Shown: positions 33,901 to 45,090, counted from the first letter of the stretch. The stretch is DNA of 64,000 bases from Armatimonadota bacterium (GCA_026003175.1 BPGT01000006.1:1-64000), one strand, 5' to 3'. Made by a program: numbers and translations. The notes: generated by a model not told the origin, from the sequence alone.

Positions 33901-34839
33901 TTATTGTGTACGGACTTGCGCAATCACTATCTCTTCCTGGGTAGCACTACTCGCCTGAGACAGGTATCCCGAACCGTCCGAAGTGCGTGAGATGTGCGCA
34001 ACAATACTGGAGCGCCCCTCGATAACCACATCGTCGAAAAGCTTCCCCACCATCATCGGGTTGACACCGATTATCTCGCGATGCTGCTGGCACGCCTGCC
34101 ATAAGCCTGTTTTCCAGCTCTCCGCCTGCTCCTGTGTCCATGGTAATGGGTTAAACGAAGGCTGCGCGATCAAACGTACTTTCTGGCGTGCCAGAGCCTC
34201 TATCACGTCGGCGTGGAAGCCGTCCCAACAGATGGCGACGCCCAGCCTGCCCACGGGCGTGTCTACTACCCGTACGTCTTCCACCCTGCCTGCGCAGAGG
34301 TCCATCCCTTCCTGTTGTTCCAGAGGGATGAGATGCACCTTGCGTTGTGTCAGTATCAGCCGGCCCTTGGGGTCAAACACGTAGCAGGTGTTATACACTT
34401 CGCCGGGGCGATTTTCATCGGGTAGCGGTGCGCTGCCTGCCACCAGAGTCACACCGTGTTTACGCGCTGCCTGCGAGAACAGGCGGCGATAACGGCTTTC
34501 CAGCTTTTTGCCTAGCGCCAGCAGAATGGCCCGCGTTGGAGAAGTCTTGTACGAATCTATCGCCTGACGGATGGGGGAGGCGTAGCGTTGTGAGAGCACT
34601 GCAGCTGCTTCGTAGATGCTTCTACAACCTTTAACCGCCTCGTAGTCATCCAGAAAGAGCATTCCCAGACCAATGTCTTCGGGGAAGACGACCAGCGCAG
34701 GGATGCCAGACCGAATGCGCTTCGTGGCAGAGGTAAGTAGCCTATCAATGCGATGTTCCAACTGCTTCTCATTCTGGTAATCTTCCAGAGTGGTGCGCAT
34801 CTGTATAGCAATCAGCGCCACTTCGCCACCTGGCTTCAT
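33901..34839 (-). CDS. Nitrilase-superfamily carbon-nitrogen hydrolase
   Basis: A 312-residue amidase-fold protein with the catalytic triad Glu54 (VFPEDIG), Lys167 (TQRKVHLIP) and Cys204 (VAICWDGF). Members cleave amides or nitriles, such as carbamoyl-putrescine or omega-amides; the substrate is unclear. The start at 34839 lies behind GGAGG, though the open frame continues to 34917. Transcribed toward the sugar-kinase gene with a 40-bp gap. Confidence 0.85.
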   Translation of the reverse strand: MKPGGEVALIAIQMRTTLEDYQNEKQLEHRIDRLLTSATKRIRSGIPALVVFPEDIGLGMLFLDDYEAVKGCRSIYEAAAVLSQRYASPIRQAIDSYKTSPTRAILLALGKKLESRYRRLFSQAARKHGVTLVAGSAPLPDENRPGEVYNTCYVFDPKGRLILTQRKVHLIPLEQQEGMDLCAGRVEDVRVVDTPVGRLGVAICWDGFHADVIEALARQKVRLIAQPSFNPLPWTQEQAESWKTGLWQACQQHREIIGVNPMMVGKLFDDVVIEGRSSIVAHISRTSDGSGYLSQASSATQEEIVIAQVRTQ

Positions 34840-35073
34840 ATTGAGAACCTCCGTTGCCTCCTGTTTTTTAATTTCGTGGTAACCTGCCAGTTTCCTGCAA
34901 AACATCTGCCTGAGCAAGGGTGAGGCAGGTGAGAGGAGTGAAGCAGTTGGAATAAGGTGGGAGATGGCTTCGCCGCTTGTGCAGCTCGCATGGACACGTG
35001 CGCTTTTTCACCCGTCGCTTGACGGTAATGCTCGTTCATGCTATGCTTGAGACGAGGAAGGGAGGTTGTTACC

Positions 35074-37812
35074 GTGTTCGCACGTTGCGCTCTGATAGTG
35101 CTGGCAATCATATCCTTCACCAGCGGTTACGCACAGACGCTTTATTACATCGACTTCCGCAACCCGTATGAGGTCGCCCGATGGCAACCTACCCATGCCA
35201 TCAGTCGGCTACTGCCCACATGGGATGGGATGCAGATAGAGATTTCGGGCGAAGACCCCTATACCATCGGTCCCGCCTATAGCCTGCCTTCGGATCAGGC
35301 GCTGTATCTGCGTCTTCGGGTGAAGGCAGAGGTGGGCACGTTCTGGCAGATTTTCTATTTTCGTGACGGCACCTGGGCGACGGAGGAGCAATCCGTGCGC
35401 TTCACCGTGCCGCAGGGACAGTGGGGTGAGCCAACGCTTATTCTGCCCGTCCTGCCCGGCAACTATCGGTTTCGGATTGACCCACCTGGTCCTTCCGGCA
35501 GAGCGTGGGTGCGTTACATGAGCATCGAGGTGCGTCATATTCCTCAGGAGCCACAATGGCTGCAACCTGTTCTGCCCGATTTGCAGGGTGAGGTGCATGA
35601 GATACGCTCCGGCGATCTGGTGCTGCGGCATGGTGTGCCTGCACCCGGTAACTTTGAGGTGCTCGTAGTGGGCGAGCGCATGGCAACCGGCTTTACCCGC
35701 CCCATGATAGGCTACCAGATGGGCAACAACAGCCGGTGGGTGGACGTGCACTCCGCCATGCAGAACACGCGCCTGTGGCGTGAGGGAGGTACGCTGGTGG
35801 TGGAGTATACCTTGCGCGACCCGGACGGAGGTAACTGGTTATGGACACAACGGTTCACACCGAATACATCTTCAGGCGCGATAGATACGCAGACGCAGGT
35901 GAGCGTAGACCAGTCGCGTGAGGTGTACTTTCTGCCGATGTTCCTGCTGCTGCCCGGCATGGGCAGTTACGGCGTGTCCAAGGGACAGGGGCTGTTTGCA
36001 GGGCTGGAGTATCTGGAAAACGAACCGAGCAGCTCTGAAGCGGACGTAGTGGGCGCGGCGGCGCGCCGACAGGTACCCGATAACCTCAAAATTACCTTCC
36101 CGCTGATGGCGATACAAGCGCGCGGACGGTACGTGGGTTTGGTCTGGCAACCCGATGAGCGGTTCTGCGCGTTGTTCGATTCGCCGGACCGCTTCTTCGC
36201 CTCCGGGGCGCACGTGATGGGCATCCTCAGCCCCGGCTCCAATGGGGTGAACCGCGAGGAGGGGAAGCTGATCCCCAGTTTCCCCATCCTATTGCAGCCG
36301 AACCAACCTCTGGTGTTGAACGCTACCCTCATCGGTGGGCGAGGGGAAAGCGTGGTGCCAGCCATCCAGCAATACGTGCGCCTGCGCGGCTTGCCTCCCC
36401 TGCCGAATATCGGCGTGAACTTTGCAGGGTATGTGTCGCTGGCGGCGGGAGGATGGCTGGACTCGCGCATCCGCGAGGGCTATCTGTTCCGGCATGCTTT
36501 CTGGCCCGGCTTTGACCCCCAGCCCTCTGCAGATGCGGCGGTGCTGATGGAGTGGCTGGCAGCTTACACCTCCGACCCCAATCTGGCGCAACGTCTGCGC
36601 GAAACCGCCATTGGAGCTATTGCGCAGGTTCCTCAAAGTGCAATGAACTTCTATAACATCTCGCATAACGCCTATCCGGTGGCTGCGCTGGTGTACGGGT
36701 ATGTGGCGGACAATATGGAGACTGCCCGACAGGTCGGCTGGCAGATAGTGTCGCGCTTCGAGCCGGATGGCACGCTCATCTATCGTCCCGAACCCGGCAA
36801 GCCCGACTATGGACGCACGCACTACGCCCCCGACGCCAGCGGATACACTGCCGCCGCAGTGGTGCAGGTGCTGGAGCATGGCGCGTTCAGCGGTGACCGC
36901 CAGCTGATTGCCGAAGGACTACGCTTGCTACGGGCGATGGACAAGTTCCGTAACGGCGTGCCGCGCGGTGCGCAGACATGGGAAATCCCGTTGCATACCC
37001 CCGATATCTACGCCGCAGGTCTGCTGGTACGTGCCTACCTGATGGGCTACCTGCTCACCGGTTACCGGGACTATCTGGAACAGGCGCGATACTGGGCGTG
37101 GACGGGCGTGCCGTTCGTGTACCTGGTGAACCCGGCGAACCAGAATACTGGCACATACGCCACCATTCCCGTCTACGGCGCGACCAACTGGGTGGCGCCC
37201 GTGTGGTTTGGACTACCCGTGCAGTGGTGCGGACTGGCGTACGCCGACGCCCTTTACCGGCTGGCACGGGTAGACCCTTACGGTGGTCCCTGGCGTGCGA
37301 TAGCGGACGGCATCACCGCTACCGGAATCCAGATGACGTGGAAGCAGGACGATATCGAAAGACAGGGGCTGCTGCCGGATGTGTTTCACCTGCGCACTCA
37401 GGTGCGCGACGGACCGCCGATCAACCCGGGTACGGTGCAGACGGACGCTGTTCGGTTGTTCCACGCCACGCCCGTCTACTCGCTGCAGGCGGTGCATCCC
37501 ACCAAACTGCTTATTCACGCGCCCGGGCAGATAGACCAGGTGCTGGTGCGCACTCCTCTGCCGGGCAACCCGCGCCGTTTGCAGGTTTCCTTCCGCGTCA
37601 CCCCGTGGCTATCGCGTCGCTACTACATCCTGATTAACGGTCTAGATCGGATGCCTCGGGTGCGCGTCAACGGCACGCCGGTAACCATCACCTCGCCGCA
37701 TCAGTATCTGCCTTCGAGGAGCCTTGTACTGCAGCTGCTGGGTACCAGCCGGGTGGAACTGCTCATGGAACCTGCAGCCAACTCACCCGCGCCTGTGTCA
37801 GGTGAACGGTAG
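35074..37812 (+). CDS. Large secreted protein with possible glycan-active domain, 912 aa
   Basis: The GTG at 35074 follows GGGAGG and starts a signal peptide, MFARCALIVLAIISFTSGYA. Residues 20-150 look like a beta-sandwich carbohydrate-binding module (WDGMQIEISGEDPYTIGPAY). The middle is rich in Trp and Tyr. Residues 420-720 have helical repeats with paired aromatic and acidic residues (LLRAMDKFRNGVPRGAQTWE, WAWTGVPFVYL), as in alpha/alpha-barrel glycosidases. A C-terminal beta domain follows. A polysaccharide-degrading role is plausible but no catalytic family is identified. Confidence 0.7.
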   Translation: MFARCALIVLAIISFTSGYAQTLYYIDFRNPYEVARWQPTHAISRLLPTWDGMQIEISGEDPYTIGPAYSLPSDQALYLRLRVKAEVGTFWQIFYFRDGTWATEEQSVRFTVPQGQWGEPTLILPVLPGNYRFRIDPPGPSGRAWVRYMSIEVRHIPQEPQWLQPVLPDLQGEVHEIRSGDLVLRHGVPAPGNFEVLVVGERMATGFTRPMIGYQMGNNSRWVDVHSAMQNTRLWREGGTLVVEYTLRDPDGGNWLWTQRFTPNTSSGAIDTQTQVSVDQSREVYFLPMFLLLPGMGSYGVSKGQGLFAGLEYLENEPSSSEADVVGAAARRQVPDNLKITFPLMAIQARGRYVGLVWQPDERFCALFDSPDRFFASGAHVMGILSPGSNGVNREEGKLIPSFPILLQPNQPLVLNATLIGGRGESVVPAIQQYVRLRGLPPLPNIGVNFAGYVSLAAGGWLDSRIREGYLFRHAFWPGFDPQPSADAAVLMEWLAAYTSDPNLAQRLRETAIGAIAQVPQSAMNFYNISHNAYPVAALVYGYVADNMETARQVGWQIVSRFEPDGTLIYRPEPGKPDYGRTHYAPDASGYTAAAVVQVLEHGAFSGDRQLIAEGLRLLRAMDKFRNGVPRGAQTWEIPLHTPDIYAAGLLVRAYLMGYLLTGYRDYLEQARYWAWTGVPFVYLVNPANQNTGTYATIPVYGATNWVAPVWFGLPVQWCGLAYADALYRLARVDPYGGPWRAIADGITATGIQMTWKQDDIERQGLLPDVFHLRTQVRDGPPINPGTVQTDAVRLFHATPVYSLQAVHPTKLLIHAPGQIDQVLVRTPLPGNPRRLQVSFRVTPWLSRRYYILINGLDRMPRVRVNGTPVTITSPHQYLPSRSLVLQLLGTSRVELLMEPAANSPAPVSGER

Positions 37813-37841
37813 GGTACAGTGGCAGGAGAGGGGATTACCCG

Positions 37842-37979
37842 ATGCAGAGCGTGCTGGTATCGCCAAAGAGGGCTGGCCGCATAGCACAGTGCTACCCCCA
37901 CTTTCGCCTCAAGCAGGAGTGGTTTACCAGCGAACATTTGCCTGACCCCTGCACCGCATGGCAGCAGATGCAGGGATAA
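37842..37979 (+). CDS. Possible small protein, 45 aa
   Basis: ATG at 37842, 8 bp after GGAGAGGGG, reads MQSVLVSPKRAGRIAQCYPH then FRLKQEWFTSEHLPDPCTAW to TAA at 37977. It directly follows the large secreted protein gene. Basic, with two Cys, no membrane segment. No family recognised; the ribosome site is the main support. Confidence 0.3.
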   Translation: MQSVLVSPKRAGRIAQCYPHFRLKQEWFTSEHLPDPCTAWQQMQG

Positions 37980-38002: not shown

Positions 38003-38570
38003 CTACACCGCCGCTGACCCGGGTTGCACGGCTCGGTATAACCTAGACAGCAGCAAGCCATAACAACCCTTCACCAAGCCTTTCCACCTCCACAACGTTT
38101 CCACACTGCCCTGCTGATACCGCAACACCCGAACAGGTCAGCCAGGTTGTTGCTGACCACCGATGCCGACATGTTCCTCATCACTTCCGCGGTGCCTGGT
38201 TGGTCAACCTCTCCCCCTTCCCCTCTCCTGCGAGGAGAGGGGAGCCGCGCATCGGGCGCCTCCTTCCCTCGTAGGGAAGGGGGGCAGGGGGTTAGGTTAC
38301 CAAACTTTAACCTCTCCCCCTTCCCCTCTCCTGCGAGGAGAGGGGAGCCGCACGTCGGACGCCCCCTTCCCTCGTAGGGAAGGGGGCAGGGGGGTTAGGT
38401 TTCTCCCCAACGGGTTAAAGTGATGTCACTCACTGTTTCGACGTACCAAAGAGATACCCTGCAGATACAGAGCACTGGCCGCCCAACTGCCACCCTCCAG
38501 CGGTTTCTGCTGCTCTACCAACTCGCCCGCTCCGCACGCTACACCCCGTTCAGGTAGTCCTTGCGCTATC
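38003..38570 (-). pseudogene. RHS C-terminal fragment 2 (degraded orphan tip)
   Basis: Nucleotide-level match to the main RHS gene over the region around 41760-42050 (the CGAGC-rich VACGAGELVEQQ stretch, then LYLQGISLVRRNSE). It is broken by a short deletion, by small indels and by a repeat array inserted at 38206-38400. After the usual core end it reads WRWKGLVKGCYGLLLSRLYR to a TAG at 38003, a tip unlike the other two. No start codon or full domain remains, so it is a remnant of an orphan C-terminal cassette. Confidence 0.75.
38206..38400. repeat. Palindromic repeat array A (2 units)
   Basis: Two units of about 100 bp (38206-38308 and 38309-38400). Each has a CCCCTCTCCTGCGAGGAGAGGGG palindrome-type core and a second CCCTTCCCT/AGGGAAGGG dyad, ending GGTTAGGTTA. 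The array splits the RHS fragment exactly between GTGCCT and AACGGG, which are adjacent in the intact copy near 41870, so it is a clean insertion. Confidence 0.85.
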
Positions 38571-38576
38571 CCTACA

Positions 38577-38753
38577 CTACGCCCTTTGTGAAACCCTGCC
38601 CTGCTTGCGTTGCTGCTGTCGTTCCCGCAGCCGTTGATACCTTTCCTCCCAAAAAGCACGCCGTTCCTCTGGCGTCAAAGACTCCAGCTGCCGCAGCAGC
38701 CGCTCTGCCCCCTCTCTCTTCATGCGAACACAATCAAAGCTCTTCGTCTTCAT
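38577..38753 (-). CDS. Small charged helical protein, probable antitoxin partner of PIN gene
   Basis: A 58-residue protein, MKTKSFDCVRMKREGAERLL then RQLESLTPEERRAFWEERYQ and an Arg/Gln-rich end. The start at 38753 follows GGAGGTG and overlaps the PIN gene by 20 bp. This arrangement and the FDCVxMKxxGAE start match small genes found next to PIN-domain genes. It is probably the antitoxin, although order (toxin first) is reversed from many VapBC pairs. Confidence 0.7.
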   Translation of the reverse strand: MKTKSFDCVRMKREGAERLLRQLESLTPEERRAFWEERYQRLRERQQQRKQGRVSQRA

Positions 38754-39204
38754 ACTCAATCACCTCCAGAGGCGAGAAGATGCCCACCTGAGGATAACCC
38801 CGGCTGAGGTTTACCAGATTGTATTGCGCCATGCGCCGAAAATGCACAATATGGCGAAAGTTCCAGCTGACGATGAGAGCACACCCTGACACCGTAGCCA
38901 GTGCTACGTGCAACGCATCCATCTGAGCCGAAGCGGGAACTACCCCAGCCTGAAGATACGCTTGCTGCAGAGACTCCGCCTCTTCGGTAATAGGCACAAT
39001 CTCCATTTGCTCCAACAGACTGTCATACAGAGCCTGCACCGGATCAGGGGCGAAGACGAGTTCCTGACTCACCAGCGGGGACGTGACGAGGAGGAACCTA
39101 CCAGCCCGCACAGCGGCGAAGAAGCGCTCTGAGGGCTCCTGAAACTCTTCATCAAAGCAGCCGCCAAACACGGAGCTATCAGCGTACACCCGCACAGGGC
39201 GCAT
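38734..39204 (-). CDS. PIN-domain nuclease (VapC-like toxin)
   Basis: A 156-residue protein with the PIN-domain acids: Asp in VYADSSVFGG near the N-terminus, Glu in LVSQELVFAP, and Asp in AQMDALHVALATVSG. Such domains cleave RNA. The start at 39204 follows GAGGAGG. It overlaps a small helical gene downstream that is probably its antitoxin. The pair lies inside the RHS locus between two C-terminal fragments, so it may be a passenger or a defence module. Confidence 0.85.
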   Translation of the reverse strand: MRPVRVYADSSVFGGCFDEEFQEPSERFFAAVRAGRFLLVTSPLVSQELVFAPDPVQALYDSLLEQMEIVPITEEAESLQQAYLQAGVVPASAQMDALHVALATVSGCALIVSWNFRHIVHFRRMAQYNLVNLSRGYPQVGIFSPLEVIEYEDEEL

Positions 39205-39400
39205 TGCGTTCAGCCTCCTCGCTATGAAACTATATCACAACTGTCGCCACGTCGCAACGGCACCCATTCTCCTGCTCGCCTCAAGCCGTTCCCTGACACA
39301 CGAAGCCAGCCTTAGATGGATTGGTAATTCGCACGAGTTGGCTTCAGCTGCGATTGCCGTGCACCACTGCAGAGGATGAAACATTTCGGCACAGCTCGTA

Positions 39401-39832
39401 TTAACATAGGTCGGTCTTTGGTGAAGGACCCTGTTTGCGGTGGGAAAGGGCACTCCATGCAGAAGTGATGAGCGACATCCCCCCAACAAATGTCAGATCC
39501 ATGGATAACAGGAACCCCATCCAGTAGCCGGTCATTTTGAAGAAGGAGGGAAGGCTGCTGCCCAATGTGTCGGTCAAGGAGAAAAAGATTCCCGCCAAGA
39601 AAAAACCCATTAAGGCAATACCTGTGAAGAAGAGCAGTCCTGCTGTCACGATACCGCGACCTGCGTTTCTTTGTGCCTGTCTTTGCAGACGCATGAACAG
39701 CCTGCGTGCGAATCTCCTGACCGGCTTGCTGCGTCGCATCACGGCGTACAGAATCATCACGACGTAAAAGGTTATCACGGCCCATTGCCCCATGCGAAGA
39801 TAATCGGCGTGCTCTACGCGTACAGGTTCCAT
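39401..39832 (-). CDS. Membrane protein, candidate immunity partner of orphan tip 1
   Basis: A 143-residue protein with about four hydrophobic helices (WAVITFYVVMILYAV near 18, GIVTAGLLFFTGIALMGFFL near 62, and two after 95). The start at 39832 (MEPVRVEHADYLRMG) follows GGGAGG. It lies 90 bp behind the orphan RHS tip at 39923-40468 in the same orientation. Position and membrane nature fit an immunity protein against a membrane-active tip, but no homology supports this. Confidence 0.55.
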   Translation of the reverse strand: MEPVRVEHADYLRMGQWAVITFYVVMILYAVMRRSKPVRRFARRLFMRLQRQAQRNAGRGIVTAGLLFFTGIALMGFFLAGIFFSLTDTLGSSLPSFFKMTGYWMGFLLSMDLTFVGGMSLITSAWSALSHRKQGPSPKTDLC

Positions 39833-39922
39833 ATATGCCACCTCCCAATCTATGCAGGCAACATAAGCACAGGGTCTCCCTCCCCCCGTTTATCCTCACC
39901 GGGCGCGAAGCCCGAAGACCTC

Positions 39923-40468
39923 TCACTGCAGTGTCGGCTGCGCAGGCACCACTGGTAACCTGGGCATTCTGGCTCCTCTCATACACTCCTCGTATTGGCG
40001 TAAACAATCATTCATCATCCGCCGATAAATGGCGTGACATCCTATGCCACAGAGCGTCCCCGCACCCAGCGCTGCCAGCTCGCATATCGCACCACAGAAT
40101 GGTTTCAGGGGAGGTGGGGCTGTCGCCAGACAGAGTGATTGACAAATGCCCGGCCCCCTTGCAACTATCGCAGCACAGATGCCCACACAAAACGCCAGGA
40201 ATCCTTGTGCTAATAATCTACAGTGCTGCAGCTGTGTTTCGCAGTCCTTCGCGGGATCAGGAGGTGTTGGCACCGGTATAGGCACAGGGAATGGTATCAA
40301 CTGACATGGATTCAGGACAGCCGCCGTGTGAGGCAAGTATAAAATACCCTGTATCCAAATAGCCTCTTCATCGCCACATCTTTTGTCCTTCCACCTCCAC
40401 GGCGTCTCGGCGCTGCCCTGTTGATACCGCAACACCCCGAACAGGTCATACAGGTTGCTGCTGCTCAC
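39923..40468 (-). CDS. Orphan RHS C-terminal tip 1
   Basis: A 181-residue frame beginning SSSNLYDLFGVLRYQQGS and ending the shared part at AETPWRW, the same core end as in the main RHS gene, then diverging completely. The new part has a Pro-rich linker (PFPVPIPVPTPPDP) and a Cys-rich hydrophobic region (FLAFCVGICAAIVARGPGIC, FCGAICELAALGAGTLCGIG). The GTG start has no clear ribosome site, as expected of a displaced tip that becomes active only by recombination into the core. A membrane protein gene follows. Confidence 0.65.
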   Translation of the reverse strand: MSSSNLYDLFGVLRYQQGSAETPWRWKDKRCGDEEAIWIQGILYLPHTAAVLNPCQLIPFPVPIPVPTPPDPAKDCETQLQHCRLLAQGFLAFCVGICAAIVARGPGICQSLCLATAPPPLKPFCGAICELAALGAGTLCGIGCHAIYRRMMNDCLRQYEECMRGARMPRLPVVPAQPTLQ

Positions 40469-40523
40469 ACGCCATCTGGTCGGACGCTGGCACCTGTAGC
40501 CTGTCTCGACACGAGTGCCTTAG

Positions 40524-41288
40524 TTAAGGCAAACGTCCCGTCATATACGTGCGTAATGCTGAGCAAAGATCCCTCCTGTCCACTAACTGCCAGAATAGTG
40601 TGAAAAGAAAATCATGAAGGCCTCGCACGGCATTTCTCTGGGTCTGCGCAGGTCGGAAGATTAGTGCCATCAAGACGAGTGCAAAAGCACTTGCCGTGAG
40701 CGTCACTGCAAGCGTTTGTAGGTCAGTCACGACTATGACCTTCTCTACCAACAAATAACACATGTAGGCTATCAAGCCAAACGAAACGCAAGCAATATCA
40801 TAGGCTCTCCACAGCTTTGGTATCCAGTGTGCATCCCGCTCTTTTAGTAATAGCATGAGAGCCACTACGTCCTGCTGTGGGGTGCCAATAAGCCGTTGTA
40901 GTACTTCAGCAGTTCTCCTGCGAACCTCGCCTCCCTCAGTCGAACCGAGGTGTACAAGTACCTCTATAGCATGTACCCCAGGATTGGTAGACAGAAGGTC
41001 AACAATGTGTAGATAGGCACGAACACTGCGAGCGTTGCGGGGTAGCCCTGGGAGGGTTTTCATCTCGCTCCGTAGATAGCGACGCGAGACCTCAGCTATT
41101 CGCTCGCTAGGTACCTCCCTTAACCTTCCTGCACAGGCGCGCACTACGTCAGGATCGCGGTGGAACAGCCCCTTCAGCAACAGCGATACATCAGCCTCAC
41201 CCTGAAAGGACTGTCTGTTCCCTCCCATCGTCCTTAAGCTCTCGAAGAACTGTCTCTCTCGCTGCTTTTGACGCCACCACAGAAACAT
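40524..41288 (-). CDS. Helical-repeat membrane protein, candidate immunity partner of main RHS tip
   Basis: A 254-residue protein. The first 145 residues form HEAT-like helical pairs (VRACAGRLREVPSERIAEVS, AIEVLVHLGSTEGGEVRRRT). Then come two membrane helices (about 165-180 and 190-210, with ACVSFGLIAYMCYLLVEKVI and LTASAFALVLMALIF). The start at 41288 follows GGAGG, 23 bp behind the RHS stop, so it is co-transcribed with RHS. It could protect the cell from the hydrophobic RHS tip; this is inferred from position only. Confidence 0.6.
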   Translation of the reverse strand: MFLWWRQKQRERQFFESLRTMGGNRQSFQGEADVSLLLKGLFHRDPDVVRACAGRLREVPSERIAEVSRRYLRSEMKTLPGLPRNARSVRAYLHIVDLLSTNPGVHAIEVLVHLGSTEGGEVRRRTAEVLQRLIGTPQQDVVALMLLLKERDAHWIPKLWRAYDIACVSFGLIAYMCYLLVEKVIVVTDLQTLAVTLTASAFALVLMALIFRPAQTQRNAVRGLHDFLFTLFWQLVDRRDLCSALRTYMTGRLP

Positions 41289-41311
41289 AGCGTCTTCCTC
41301 CGTCTACGGTA

Positions 41312-43099
41312 TCAGCGATACCCTATTACTAAAGAGCCGCCGTATCCCCGCAGGCGACAGTATAGGTAACCGCCTAACGACCCAACTATACCGCAGATAG
41401 CCGCCGCCCAAGGTCCCCAGTGCCCGCAAAGACATGCTAAGCATCCTCCCAAGGTGAGGTTGCAGTTAGAGGTGAGGACGTCACAAAGAACGCACTCTAC
41501 GAACCGCGTCCACTGAAGACCCCTGTTTGAGCAGTTAATCCAGCCTAGCGCTAACGCGCCAGCAAGCATTGAGCACACCCACCAGCAGGGACCACGCCAT
41601 ATTGGGTCATGAAACGGGTAGTGGCTCGGTGGTGGTATTATACGCCCGCGGTGAGGATTGTTACAGTGCGGTGCGGAGGACGCACTGGCTGAAGCCACTA
41701 TCCAGCAAGCGCTTGTAGGAACGACCTGCATACCGTCTTCTATGGAAATGTGCCTCCATCTCCACGGCGTCTCGGCACTGCCCTGCTGATACCGCAACAC
41801 CCCAAACACATCAACCAGGTTGTTGCTGATGACGCTGGCAGAACCATTCGTGATCACCCCCGCCGTGCCTAACGGGTCAAAGTGATGCCATTCACTGTTT
41901 CGACGCACCAGCGAAATGCCCTGCAGATACAGAGCACTCGTCGTCCAACTGCCACCCTCCAGCGGCTTCTGCTGCTCCACCAGCTCGCCCGCTCCGCACG
42001 CCACGCCACACGGATACCGCGTCCACACCCCGTTGATGTAATCCTTCCGCCAACGCCTGCCTCCGTCAAATCCGTAGCCATACTCATACGCTAACTGCAC
42101 GTTGCCACCGCCGTAATCCCGGCGAATGCGGATGAGCCTCCCCTCCTCGTCATACTCCAACAACCGCGTGTAACCCGGTCCCGGAAAACTCGCCAACGTG
42201 CCGTCCGCGTTCCACACATACGTCTCGGTCGTGTTGGTGGCTGCATCCACTACCTGAACCAGCCTGCCTACGCCGTCATACGTATACGTGCCACGATGCG
42301 TCTCTACACCGTTCTCCACACGACGCGCAAACGTGCGGTTGCCGGAAGCGTCATACTGATACTCCCCCAGATACGGACGGTTCACCGTCCGCTCCTCGCG
42401 CAGCAACCTGCCTGCTCCGTCATACTGATACGTCGTCACCGCGTTGGACGGGGTTTCGTTCATGCGCGTCACCCTGCCCGCACTGTCATACGTCACCGCG
42501 TAGCCAATGATCAGCGCACTCGTGGAGTGCACCCGATGCTGCACGCTCGTCACCCTGCCCGCGCTGTCGTAAGCGTAGTCCACCCGCGTGTTGTTGGAAT
42601 ATACCTCACGGGTGACCGCACTGTTGGCGTTGTACGTATACTGCACCCAACTCGTGGGGTCCGACACCCGAACCAGCCTGCCTGCGCCGTCGTAACTGTA
42701 GGTTATCTGCCTGCCCGTCACGTCCGTCTGGCGGGTGAGCCTGCCTGCCCCGTCATATGTGAACTGCGTCTGCCTGCCCATCGGGTCGGTCAATGCCGTC
42801 ACCTCGCTACTGCGCTGTAGACGGGATAAGCGGGTTGCCAGGGCTGTGGCGAGCCCGGAGCAGGTTGCAGGGGTGGTGCACCCGATTGCAGGTAGGAGAG
42901 GACGAGGTTCCATAGCCCGTTTGCCCAGGCGAGCCGTTTGCTGGAAGAGGAGTTGTTGTCAGTGGAAAGGGAAGAAACTGTCTCTTTTACCCCCCCCCCT
43001 CATGTCGGAGGAGGCGAAGAGCGGAGCGGCTACCTGCACGGTGAGGCTCAGGATGCACACGGTAGCCAGTGTGCGCAGATACGGAAAGCGTCGTAACAT
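41312..43099 (-). pseudogene. RHS-repeat protein gene, 5' end interrupted
   Basis: ATG at 43099 starts a signal peptide (MLRRFPYLRTLATVCILSLT). The frame meets TGA at 42959 right after a run of ten G, then stays open in the same frame to 41312. From 42810 it contains about ten YD repeats (FTYDGAGRLTRQTDVTGRQI and relatives), the RHS core end (DVFGVLRYQQGS), and a new tip of about 150 residues. The tip is Cys-rich and hydrophobic (LGGCLACLCGHWGPWAAAIC, GIVGSLGGYLYC). The usual N-terminal RHS region seems deleted. It may be an off-phase or decayed gene. Confidence 0.75.
42990..42999. repeat. G10/C10 homopolymer tract in RHS gene
   Basis: Ten C on the plus strand (ten G in the gene) lie about 35 codons after the RHS start. 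Loss of one G would move reading to a frame that continues VKETVSSLSTDNNSSSSKRL and stays open for about 60 codons. Such tracts slip readily and can act as on/off switches in surface-protein genes. Confidence 0.7.
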
Positions 43100-43253: not shown

Positions 43254-43741
43254 ACCTCTCCCCCTTCCCCTCTCCTGCGAGGAGAGGGGCGCAGGCGCGG
43301 ATGCCCCCTTCCTTTGTAGGGAAGGGGGTCAGGGGGTTAGGTTACTAGACTTTAACCTCTCCCCCGTCCCCTCTCCTACGAGGAGAGGGGAGTTGCCCCC
43401 TTCCCTCGCAGGGAAGGGGGTCAGGGGGTTAGGTTACCAAACTTTAACCTCTCCCCCTTCCCCTCTCCTGCGAGGAGAGGGGCGCAGGCGCGGATGCCCC
43501 CTTCCTTTGTAGGGAAGGGGGTCAGGGGGTTAGGTTACTAGACTTTAACCTCTCCCCCTTCCCCTCTCCTGCGAGGAGAGGGGAGCCGCGCATCGGGCGC
43601 CCCCTTCCTTTGTAGGGAAGGGGGTCAGGGGGTTAGGTTACTAGACTTTAACCTCTCCCCCTTCCCCTCTCCTGCGAGGAGAGGGGAGCCGCGCGTCGGA
43701 CGCCCCCTTCCTTTGTAGGGAAGGGGGTCAGGGGGGTTAGG
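43254..43741. repeat. Palindromic repeat array B (5 units)
   Basis: Five units of about 92-103 bp begin near 43254, 43354, 43446, 43547 and 43650. They share the two nested dyads of array A and alternate spacers (a CGCAGGCGCGGATG type and a GCCGCGCATCGG type). The array fills the gap between the RHS start and the stop of the TlpA fusion gene. The strong hairpins could terminate transcription in both directions. Confidence 0.85.
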
Positions 43742-43770
43742 TCCAACCTGCGGTATCATCCTTCAGAATG

Positions 43771-44907
43771 CTACTGTCCCAGAGCCTGTTTTACCGCCTC
43801 TTCCATCTGCTTCTCGGTGCCCGGCCCGAAACCAACCTGTACCCAGGCGACCTTCCCCTCGCGGTCAATCAGCACAAAGGTAGGGATGCCCTGTACCTTG
43901 TAAGCATTGAGCACTATGCCCTCTTTGTCCATCAGCACGCGGAAGCTGTACTTGTTGTCCTGCATGAACTTCTTCACTGTGTCCAGCTCCTCGCGTGCGT
44001 TCACCGCCAGAACCATCAAGTCACCCGATTTCGCCTTCTCATGCTGGCTAAGCGACTGCGTATGTGGGAGGGACTGTCGGCAAGGCGGACACCACGTCGC
44101 CCAGAAGTCCAGGAACACCACTTTGCCCCGCAGGCTGCTCAGCGAGACCTCGTTGCCCTCCATGTCGGTCAGGGTGAAGTTCGGAGCCTCCTGTCCTTTC
44201 AGTGAAGTGGTATCTTCTTCGGCGCGTTGCGCTGCTGTGGGGGCTTCAGCCTTCTTAGCGCCTGCCGGTGGTTTGAAGGCAAATGCTGTCTTCTGGATGC
44301 TCGGATTGAGTTGCAGAGTGGTGACAACCTCCTCGTAGGTATCGCCATCGGGCATCTTGTACACCATGCGGTATACCAGCCCATCTTTCTGCCCCAAGAA
44401 GAGGGTCATGGTGCCGCCCTTACCCGTCAGCTCCACCACACGGCATGGGGTCGCGCCCACTTTTTGTGCGCCCTTTGCCTGCACTTTCTCAAAGCTCTGC
44501 TGTAGGAACCCTTCCAGAATCTGCCCGAACTGCGGCTCCATCGCCAGAGCGGCGAAGCCTGCAAAGGTCAGGTGTCCGCCAGTCAGAGGCTTGTCTTCTG
44601 GGACAGGCTGTTGTGTATAGGTTTTCTGCTGGGCGTCGTACGTGGTAAAAGTAGTGCCATCGCTAATGAACGACTGCACCAGCTTGCCGTTTTGTGTCAC
44701 CTGCACCAGAAACTGCTTCGGGCGCACGAATTGCACCGACGCCACGAAGGTCTCGCCCATCTTCATCTGCACGGTGGCTCGCAGACTCTGCACCTTCTCG
44801 TACGCCTGCCGAATCTGCTGCATCACCTGTTTGGGGGTCATGCTCTGGGCAAACGCACCTGTTGCCAGTGTGCACACTGCGCAGACGAGCAGTATCGTTC
44901 GTTTCAT
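43771..44907 (-). CDS. LolA-like/DUF2092 domain fused to TlpA-type thioredoxin
   Basis: A 378-residue exported protein. Signal peptide MKRTILLVCAVCTLATGAFA. Residues 22-210 resemble LolA/DUF2092 lipid- or lipoprotein-binding beta folds (QSLRATVQMKMGE, TFTTYDAQQKTYTQ, VVELTGKGGTMTLFLGQ). Residues 235-378 form a TlpA/ResA-like thioredoxin domain with the redox motif WCPPC at 272-276 and the cis-Pro in VQGIPTFVLID. It probably reduces or protects thiols outside the membrane, coupled to a lipid-binding partner domain. Confidence 0.87.
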   Translation of the reverse strand: MKRTILLVCAVCTLATGAFAQSMTPKQVMQQIRQAYEKVQSLRATVQMKMGETFVASVQFVRPKQFLVQVTQNGKLVQSFISDGTTFTTYDAQQKTYTQQPVPEDKPLTGGHLTFAGFAALAMEPQFGQILEGFLQQSFEKVQAKGAQKVGATPCRVVELTGKGGTMTLFLGQKDGLVYRMVYKMPDGDTYEEVVTTLQLNPSIQKTAFAFKPPAGAKKAEAPTAAQRAEEDTTSLKGQEAPNFTLTDMEGNEVSLSSLRGKVVFLDFWATWCPPCRQSLPHTQSLSQHEKAKSGDLMVLAVNAREELDTVKKFMQDNKYSFRVLMDKEGIVLNAYKVQGIPTFVLIDREGKVAWVQVGFGPGTEKQMEEAVKQALGQ

Positions 44908-45090
44908 CCTCTCCGCCTCCTCGCGAATGCTCTTTACCGCAGTATACCAGAAACGGTGGATGAGTCACAAGGAACAACTTCATCTGCAAACAGGCAAATG
45001 CCCGAAGGCAAGCGGTAGCGCTCAAAGAGGATTCTCTTCCTGCCTCTCGGAACTTTACCACAAAGCAAGCACAGAAAGGTTCCTTTGCCG

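Follow-up and report, generated by a model that had tools for sequence, protein, structure and literature searches.

The stretch of DNA analysed here, 64,000 nt long and hereafter called the window, probably carries an RHS-type polymorphic toxin locus. Its tips are supplied from a stock of cassettes by recombination at a conserved core-end; toxin and immunity proteins would act at the cell envelope, and a poly-G tract would serve as a switch.

Organization of the RHS locus

The window lies on contig C6 of genome G000, which measures 4.1 Mb. The RHS core is also present in the named congeners HRbin16, Chthonomonadia bacterium Ch118 and Armatimonadetes bacterium RSWS16, and matching through this core therefore places the window in an uncultured Armatimonadota genus. 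The locus comprises a core gene and two orphans, the first intact and the second decayed, all on the minus strand, with the following features:

43254..43742, no strand: interspersed palindromic repeat, tandem copies, upstream of the leader
43000..43099, minus strand: signal-peptide leader ORF (MLRRFPYLRTLATVCILSLTVQVAAPLFASSDM); the same leader precedes long passengers in relatives
42990..42999, minus strand: poly-G tract, G10; passenger in frame +1 relative to the leader as assembled
42805..42989, minus strand: N-terminal passenger remnant in frame +1, ending at a deletion junction; dN below dS
41756..42804, minus strand: RHS/YD-repeat core up to SAETPWRW, assigned by Pfam RHS_repeat, NCBIfam YD_repeat_2x and dN/dS
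42913-41312, minus strand: main RHS ORF, core and tip 1, with the SAETPWRW core end at 41756
41312..41755, minus strand: tip 1, 147 aa, 13 Cys; 97% identical to an orphan tip of genome G004
40524..41288, minus strand: tip 1 partner gene, 254 aa, candidate immunity gene; follows tip 1 in G000 and G004
40391..40468, minus strand: orphan core-end, the same as that of the main gene, with the SAETPWRW motif
39923..40390, minus strand: tip 2, 155 aa, 14 Cys; two-helix hairpin predicted by AlphaFold2
39401..39841, minus strand: tip 2 partner gene, 146 aa, candidate immunity gene; two hydrophobic segments
38206..38404, no strand: interspersed palindromic repeat, two copies, in the third core-end at the DPLG point
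38081..38548, minus strand: decayed third core-end and start of a tip, reading ...GSVETLWRW

The YD-repeat core matched Pfam RHS_repeat (E 2.7e-31) and NCBIfam YD_repeat_2x (E 1.2e-23). The start of a tip is marked by SAETPWRW and a short linker, with FDPLGTAG about 40 aa earlier; the DPxGL motif, by which the tip start is recognised in enterobacterial Rhs proteins, was not found there at the window locus. Tips 1 and 2 showed no similarity to each other (BLASTP, E 1e-3). The gap between tip and partner gene is 23 nt for tip 1 and about 80 nt for tip 2, and both partners have two hydrophobic segments. This bears out the earlier note on this DNA, which had described a core gene and two fragments with a common core-end and unrelated tips, and a membrane protein gene after the main tip and after one orphan tip; the third copy proved to be decayed. 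Chance similarity of the core-ends was rejected, since a 20-base core-end piece occurs twice in the window against 0.03 occurrences expected, and also on the grounds of clustering within genomes (0 of 5000 permutations).

The third core-end is broken up by interspersed repeats and by frame breaks. The repeat (INTERSPERSED) is palindromic and about 100 bp long, numbers 79 copies among the matches listed in the genome, and is represented by a subfamily directly after DPLG in most G000 orphan core-ends. We did not adopt it as the mobile unit because it is found genome-wide and intact cassettes free of it exist (L023, 10594-9986). Beside the decayed copy, a PIN-domain gene and a small adjoining ORF (window 38577-39204) may form a toxin-antitoxin pair, and the block at 38309-39312 is 93% identical to a stretch beside an orphan array in G004.

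A poly-G tract separates leader and passenger

A near-identical signal peptide, which looks like a Sec signal peptide, was found in six of the ten genomes of the genus, joined to its passenger by a poly-G tract. At this same site tract length ranges from 6 to 13 G between copies and between species. Only one of ten uninterrupted, scorable tracts (G6) keeps the passenger in frame; G7, G10 and G13 place it in +1 and G8 in +2, one G9 copy has an unrelated passenger in +2, and two leader copies of G004 have interrupted tracts. It is because of the tract that the passenger is out of frame with the signal peptide in most copies. In genomes G001 and G002 the full-length frames, which include core and tip, run for 1067 and 1077 aa from the tract onwards, and as these begin at the tract and no earlier, the leader could serve them only through a change of frame.

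Poly-G contingency loci have a G homopolymer of variable length in the 5' coding region that turns the reading frame on and off. The leader is like them in that a repeat tract lies within the coding region, at its 5' end, and differs in length and in its effect on the frame, here compared across copies and species; it is unlike them in that the tract sits on a common leader before both RHS and non-RHS passengers. The simplest reading that this suggests is phase variation of the exported protein: the Sec signal peptide would export the full-length protein, and slippage at the G tract between signal peptide and passenger would turn it on and off. A literature search limited to open-licence papers found nothing relevant on phase-variable RHS proteins.

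A less probable reading, which still deserves some weight, is that the tract causes programmed slippage, either of the ribosome or during transcription, or that it partly reflects an assembly error, and that some passenger is produced at all times, in small amounts. Most tracts give the same +1 frame (G7, G10, G13), as expected from this reading, and long-read assemblies can miscount homopolymers. However, copies with G8 (+2) and G6 (in frame) exist too, and out-of-frame tracts of 7 to 13 G occur in several separately assembled genomes, which speaks against this reading.

The genome has about 17 tracts of at least 9 G, some others of which also lie behind predicted signal peptides. Such tracts stand directly behind the predicted signal peptide at C3:476560, C2:987626 and C3:39620 of G000, so the theme may be genome-wide; the genes at these places are a TPR gene, another RHS gene and a third gene. 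On contig C4 of G000 (L032, 8673-6500) the same leader and a G10 tract precede a 681-aa non-RHS passenger, whose C-terminal part (HHEHRRGREVDF...NHWHVRF) we take to resemble a peptidoglycan peptidase. Furthermore, in a more distant relative (G029; L116, 5890-9204) an RHS gene with a Cys-rich tip has a twin-arginine-like signal, and just upstream there is an 8-nt homopolymer.

The main gene of the window is interrupted but constrained

Compared to G002, about 1.5 kb of the N-terminal passenger is missing from the window gene at a deletion junction (42760-42818), which it has in common with G004. The passenger frame stops after YSAVAR. The core is in the frame of the signal peptide, with one TGA in between. 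As assembled, the main gene of the window is not readable from its own signal peptide, owing to the poly-G tract and the inherited deletion. Comparison of the passenger remnant with the full-length G002 gene gave dN 0.19 against dS 0.76 in frame +1 only, and dN was likewise below dS only in this frame when compared to G007. This implies that the +1 frame of the remnant is or was translated.

These lesions raise the alternative that the genes in the window are remnants of a decaying RHS locus and have no present function. The main gene carries a deletion and frame breaks, the third copy is decayed, and many G000 orphans elsewhere in the genome have broken tips. Nevertheless, dN/dS of the core is 0.07 to 0.19 compared to relatives, the value of 0.07 being that to G004 across the common deletion; tip 1 and its partner are intact and under constraint; and full-length passenger frames are present in G001 and G002. 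We therefore consider decay of the locus unlikely.

Comparison of species shows tip exchange at the core-end

The core-end recurs at more than ten further sites in G000 and in most congeners. A fuzzy search of the fetched regions gave 73 core-end sites, nearly all from this genus, which has dozens of cassettes made up of a short core-end, a tip and a partner gene, scattered as well as in tandem. The genome maintains many such cassettes. The 47 tips that had 100 or more residues and 4 or more Cys fell into 25 groups (BLASTP, E 1e-10), 12 of them with several members.

A 1.48-kb block of the window (40390-41866) matches an orphan cassette of G004 (contig C1, L062) at 94%. It runs from one core-end to the next, and the tips beyond it differ. 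Identity along this block is 0.76 in the core-end, 0.96-0.99 from tip 1 into the partner and 0.88-0.94 further on. Tip 1, 97% identical in the two genomes, is on the main gene in the window and on an orphan at another locus in G004. Of the two flanks, that on the leader side (43651-44955) corresponds to a part of contig C3 in G004 with a different tip on the RHS gene (SMFRAADEGF...), and the other (34001-37869) matches G009 contig C6, where an orphan has yet another tip. Similarly, one G002 tip belongs to a gene whose frame extends 898 aa upstream of it, and its relatives in G001 and G004 are on orphans.

The same pairs of tip and partner reappear in different species, and their core-ends resemble others from their own genome. 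Among 70 core-ends, identity was 0.880 within genomes and 0.826 between them (0 of 5000 permutations), and for tip families present in more than one genome the core-end was closer to other cassettes from its home genome than to the cassette with the same tip in another genome in 25 cases against 6. All of this evidence concerns exchange between species, not within one population. This comparison shows that tips are exchanged by recombination within the core-end, which determines the tip on the RHS gene, and that tip and partner move together.

The tips are cysteine-rich and mostly unmatched in Pfam and PDB

In the tips, SAETPWRW is followed by a short linker, read as the degenerate end of the RHS core, and then by a Cys-rich region. 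Cys content is 8.2%, compared to 2.1% in background ORFs. The spacings C-x3-C (z 10.3), C-x6-C (z 4.5), C-x10-C (z 8.4) and C-x14-C (z 8.0) are enriched and C-x1-C is depleted, a pattern that is a helical register. Most tips are read as helical domains with a Cys ladder. The AlphaFold2 model of tip 2 (mean pLDDT 71, above 90 in parts) has long helices at 46-90 and 96-140, within which Cys spacings are mostly 4 and 11; these would allow a disulfide ladder between the two helices of the model. The model of tip 1 is also helical, with a low confidence (mean pLDDT 54) that makes it too poor for use.

Foldseek with the tip 2 model gave generic helical hairpins only and no match at E 0.001 or better. 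Pfam gave no convincing match for 38 aligned tips and none for tip 1, a profile of the 38 had no match among PDB sequences, and NCBIfam and PADLOC returned no match that counts for tip 2 or the partners. On the strength of the Pfam and PDB results with the 38 aligned tips, known domains were rejected as an account of the tips.

A tip in Ch118 (L074, 513-980) contains DSCCMAHDTCY and has weak Pfam matches to phospholipase A2 that lie below the cut-off (E 0.02 and 0.09), with no match among PDB sequences; its partner is exported or a membrane protein. Tox-PLA2 is a recognised polymorphic toxin domain (PMC3482391), which this tip resembles in its DxC and CxxHD motifs and these weak matches, and from which it differs in falling below the Pfam cut-off; moreover, the tip belongs to a congener and not to the window.

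Tips are coupled to their own partner genes

A gene lies close behind each intact tip. Recurring tip families retain their own neighbour gene: for tip 1 this is seen in two genomes, for the KTDRIS tip in three close copies. A hydrophobic segment is present in 40 of 48 partners compared to 23 of 92 background ORFs (Fisher p 2.6e-11), the background being mechanically called ORFs of similar size, some of them surely spurious; a few partners have none. Most partners are thus membrane or exported proteins. By Nei-Gojobori counts, in which several distant pairs were saturated, dN/dS is 0.07-0.41 for tips and 0.16-0.51 for most partners (0.51 for that of tip 1), and 2.3 for one close partner pair with very few changes (G000 C1:57268 and G004 C4). 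Tips and partners are mostly under purifying selection.

Could the cassettes serve antigenic or receptor variation instead? The RHS protein would then be a phase-variable surface protein whose exposed end is exchanged for that of silent cassettes, e.g. against phages or predators, and the partners would be membrane anchors or maturation factors for their own tips. A silent cassette stock combined with a frame switch is typical of contingency surface proteins, and a cassette stock and a leader frame switch are both present here. This reading is nonetheless improbable in view of the partners, which are mutually unrelated between cassettes and each travel with their own tip, of a G000 orphan (C1:58580) in which comparison to G004 reveals three indels that break the tip and none in the partner, and of the phospholipase A2-like tip, which looks like an enzyme.

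We infer that the tip and partner pattern is that of a toxin and its immunity gene. Taken together, the Cys-rich tips, the Sec-type leader and the membrane partners point to action at the cell envelope: the tip would have its target in the envelope of a neighbouring cell, and the partner, as a membrane or exported protein, would shield the producer. The earlier note had proposed a tip-switching locus of toxin/immunity cassettes with tips of an unknown class. This is supported in part: its refuting case of conserved tips without swapping did not hold across species, where tips swap and the breakpoints lie in the core-end; a tip family that recurs retains its neighbour gene; and the tip class is absent from Pfam and PDB sequences. 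What it had missed are the signal-peptide ORF, the run of 10 G with the frame change there, the deletion junction and the interruption of the main gene after the signal peptide.

Relation to known systems and implications

Enterobacterial Rhs loci contain orphan rhs-CT/rhsI modules and undergo C-terminal displacement (PMC2935791, PMC3967940). In both systems a single carrier gene is followed by orphan tips that retain part of the core, each tip has a partner gene linked to it, and exchange takes place by recombination in the conserved core. Delivery of enterobacterial Rhs is by type VI secretion; the leader here looks like a Sec signal peptide. In contrast to enterobacterial Rhs, the locus described here has a Sec-type leader with poly-G, Cys-ladder tips and no DPxGL boundary before the tip, and its cassettes are scattered genome-wide, whereas Rhs orphans lie only downstream. 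WapA/WapI of Bacillus, a Sec-exported YD-repeat toxin system (PMC3967940 and general knowledge), is similar in its signal peptide, YD repeats, variable C-terminal tip and adjacent candidate immunity gene; the Armatimonadota lineage, the frame-switch leader and the genome-wide tip stock set the present system apart. As in CDI (CdiA/CdiI, PMC3150448), orphan modules of tip and partner can be placed on a carrier by recombination, but the carrier here is a YD-repeat protein and not one of two-partner secretion. Tip displacement is of the type known from PMC2935791 and PMC3967940; the lineage is new, the tip class undescribed and the frame switch probable.

If poly-G slippage turns the exported protein on and off, the locus would have two switches, one for expression and one for tip identity. 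We propose tentatively, as a reading somewhat short of probable, that it serves antagonism in Armatimonadota through a phase-variable, Sec-exported RHS carrier that draws on a genome-scale supply of about 25 families of Cys-rich tips and envelope immunity proteins, the tips being mostly of an undescribed disulfide-laddered helical class and each having its own immunity protein.

Altogether, these data extend C-terminal tip displacement, a process worked out in enterobacteria, to a distant uncultured lineage and suggest that it is coupled there to a frame switch on an export leader. They also provide numerous uncharacterised Cys-ladder tips together with the partners that match them, and the sharp breakpoint at the core-end makes tip exchange directly testable in metagenome reads.
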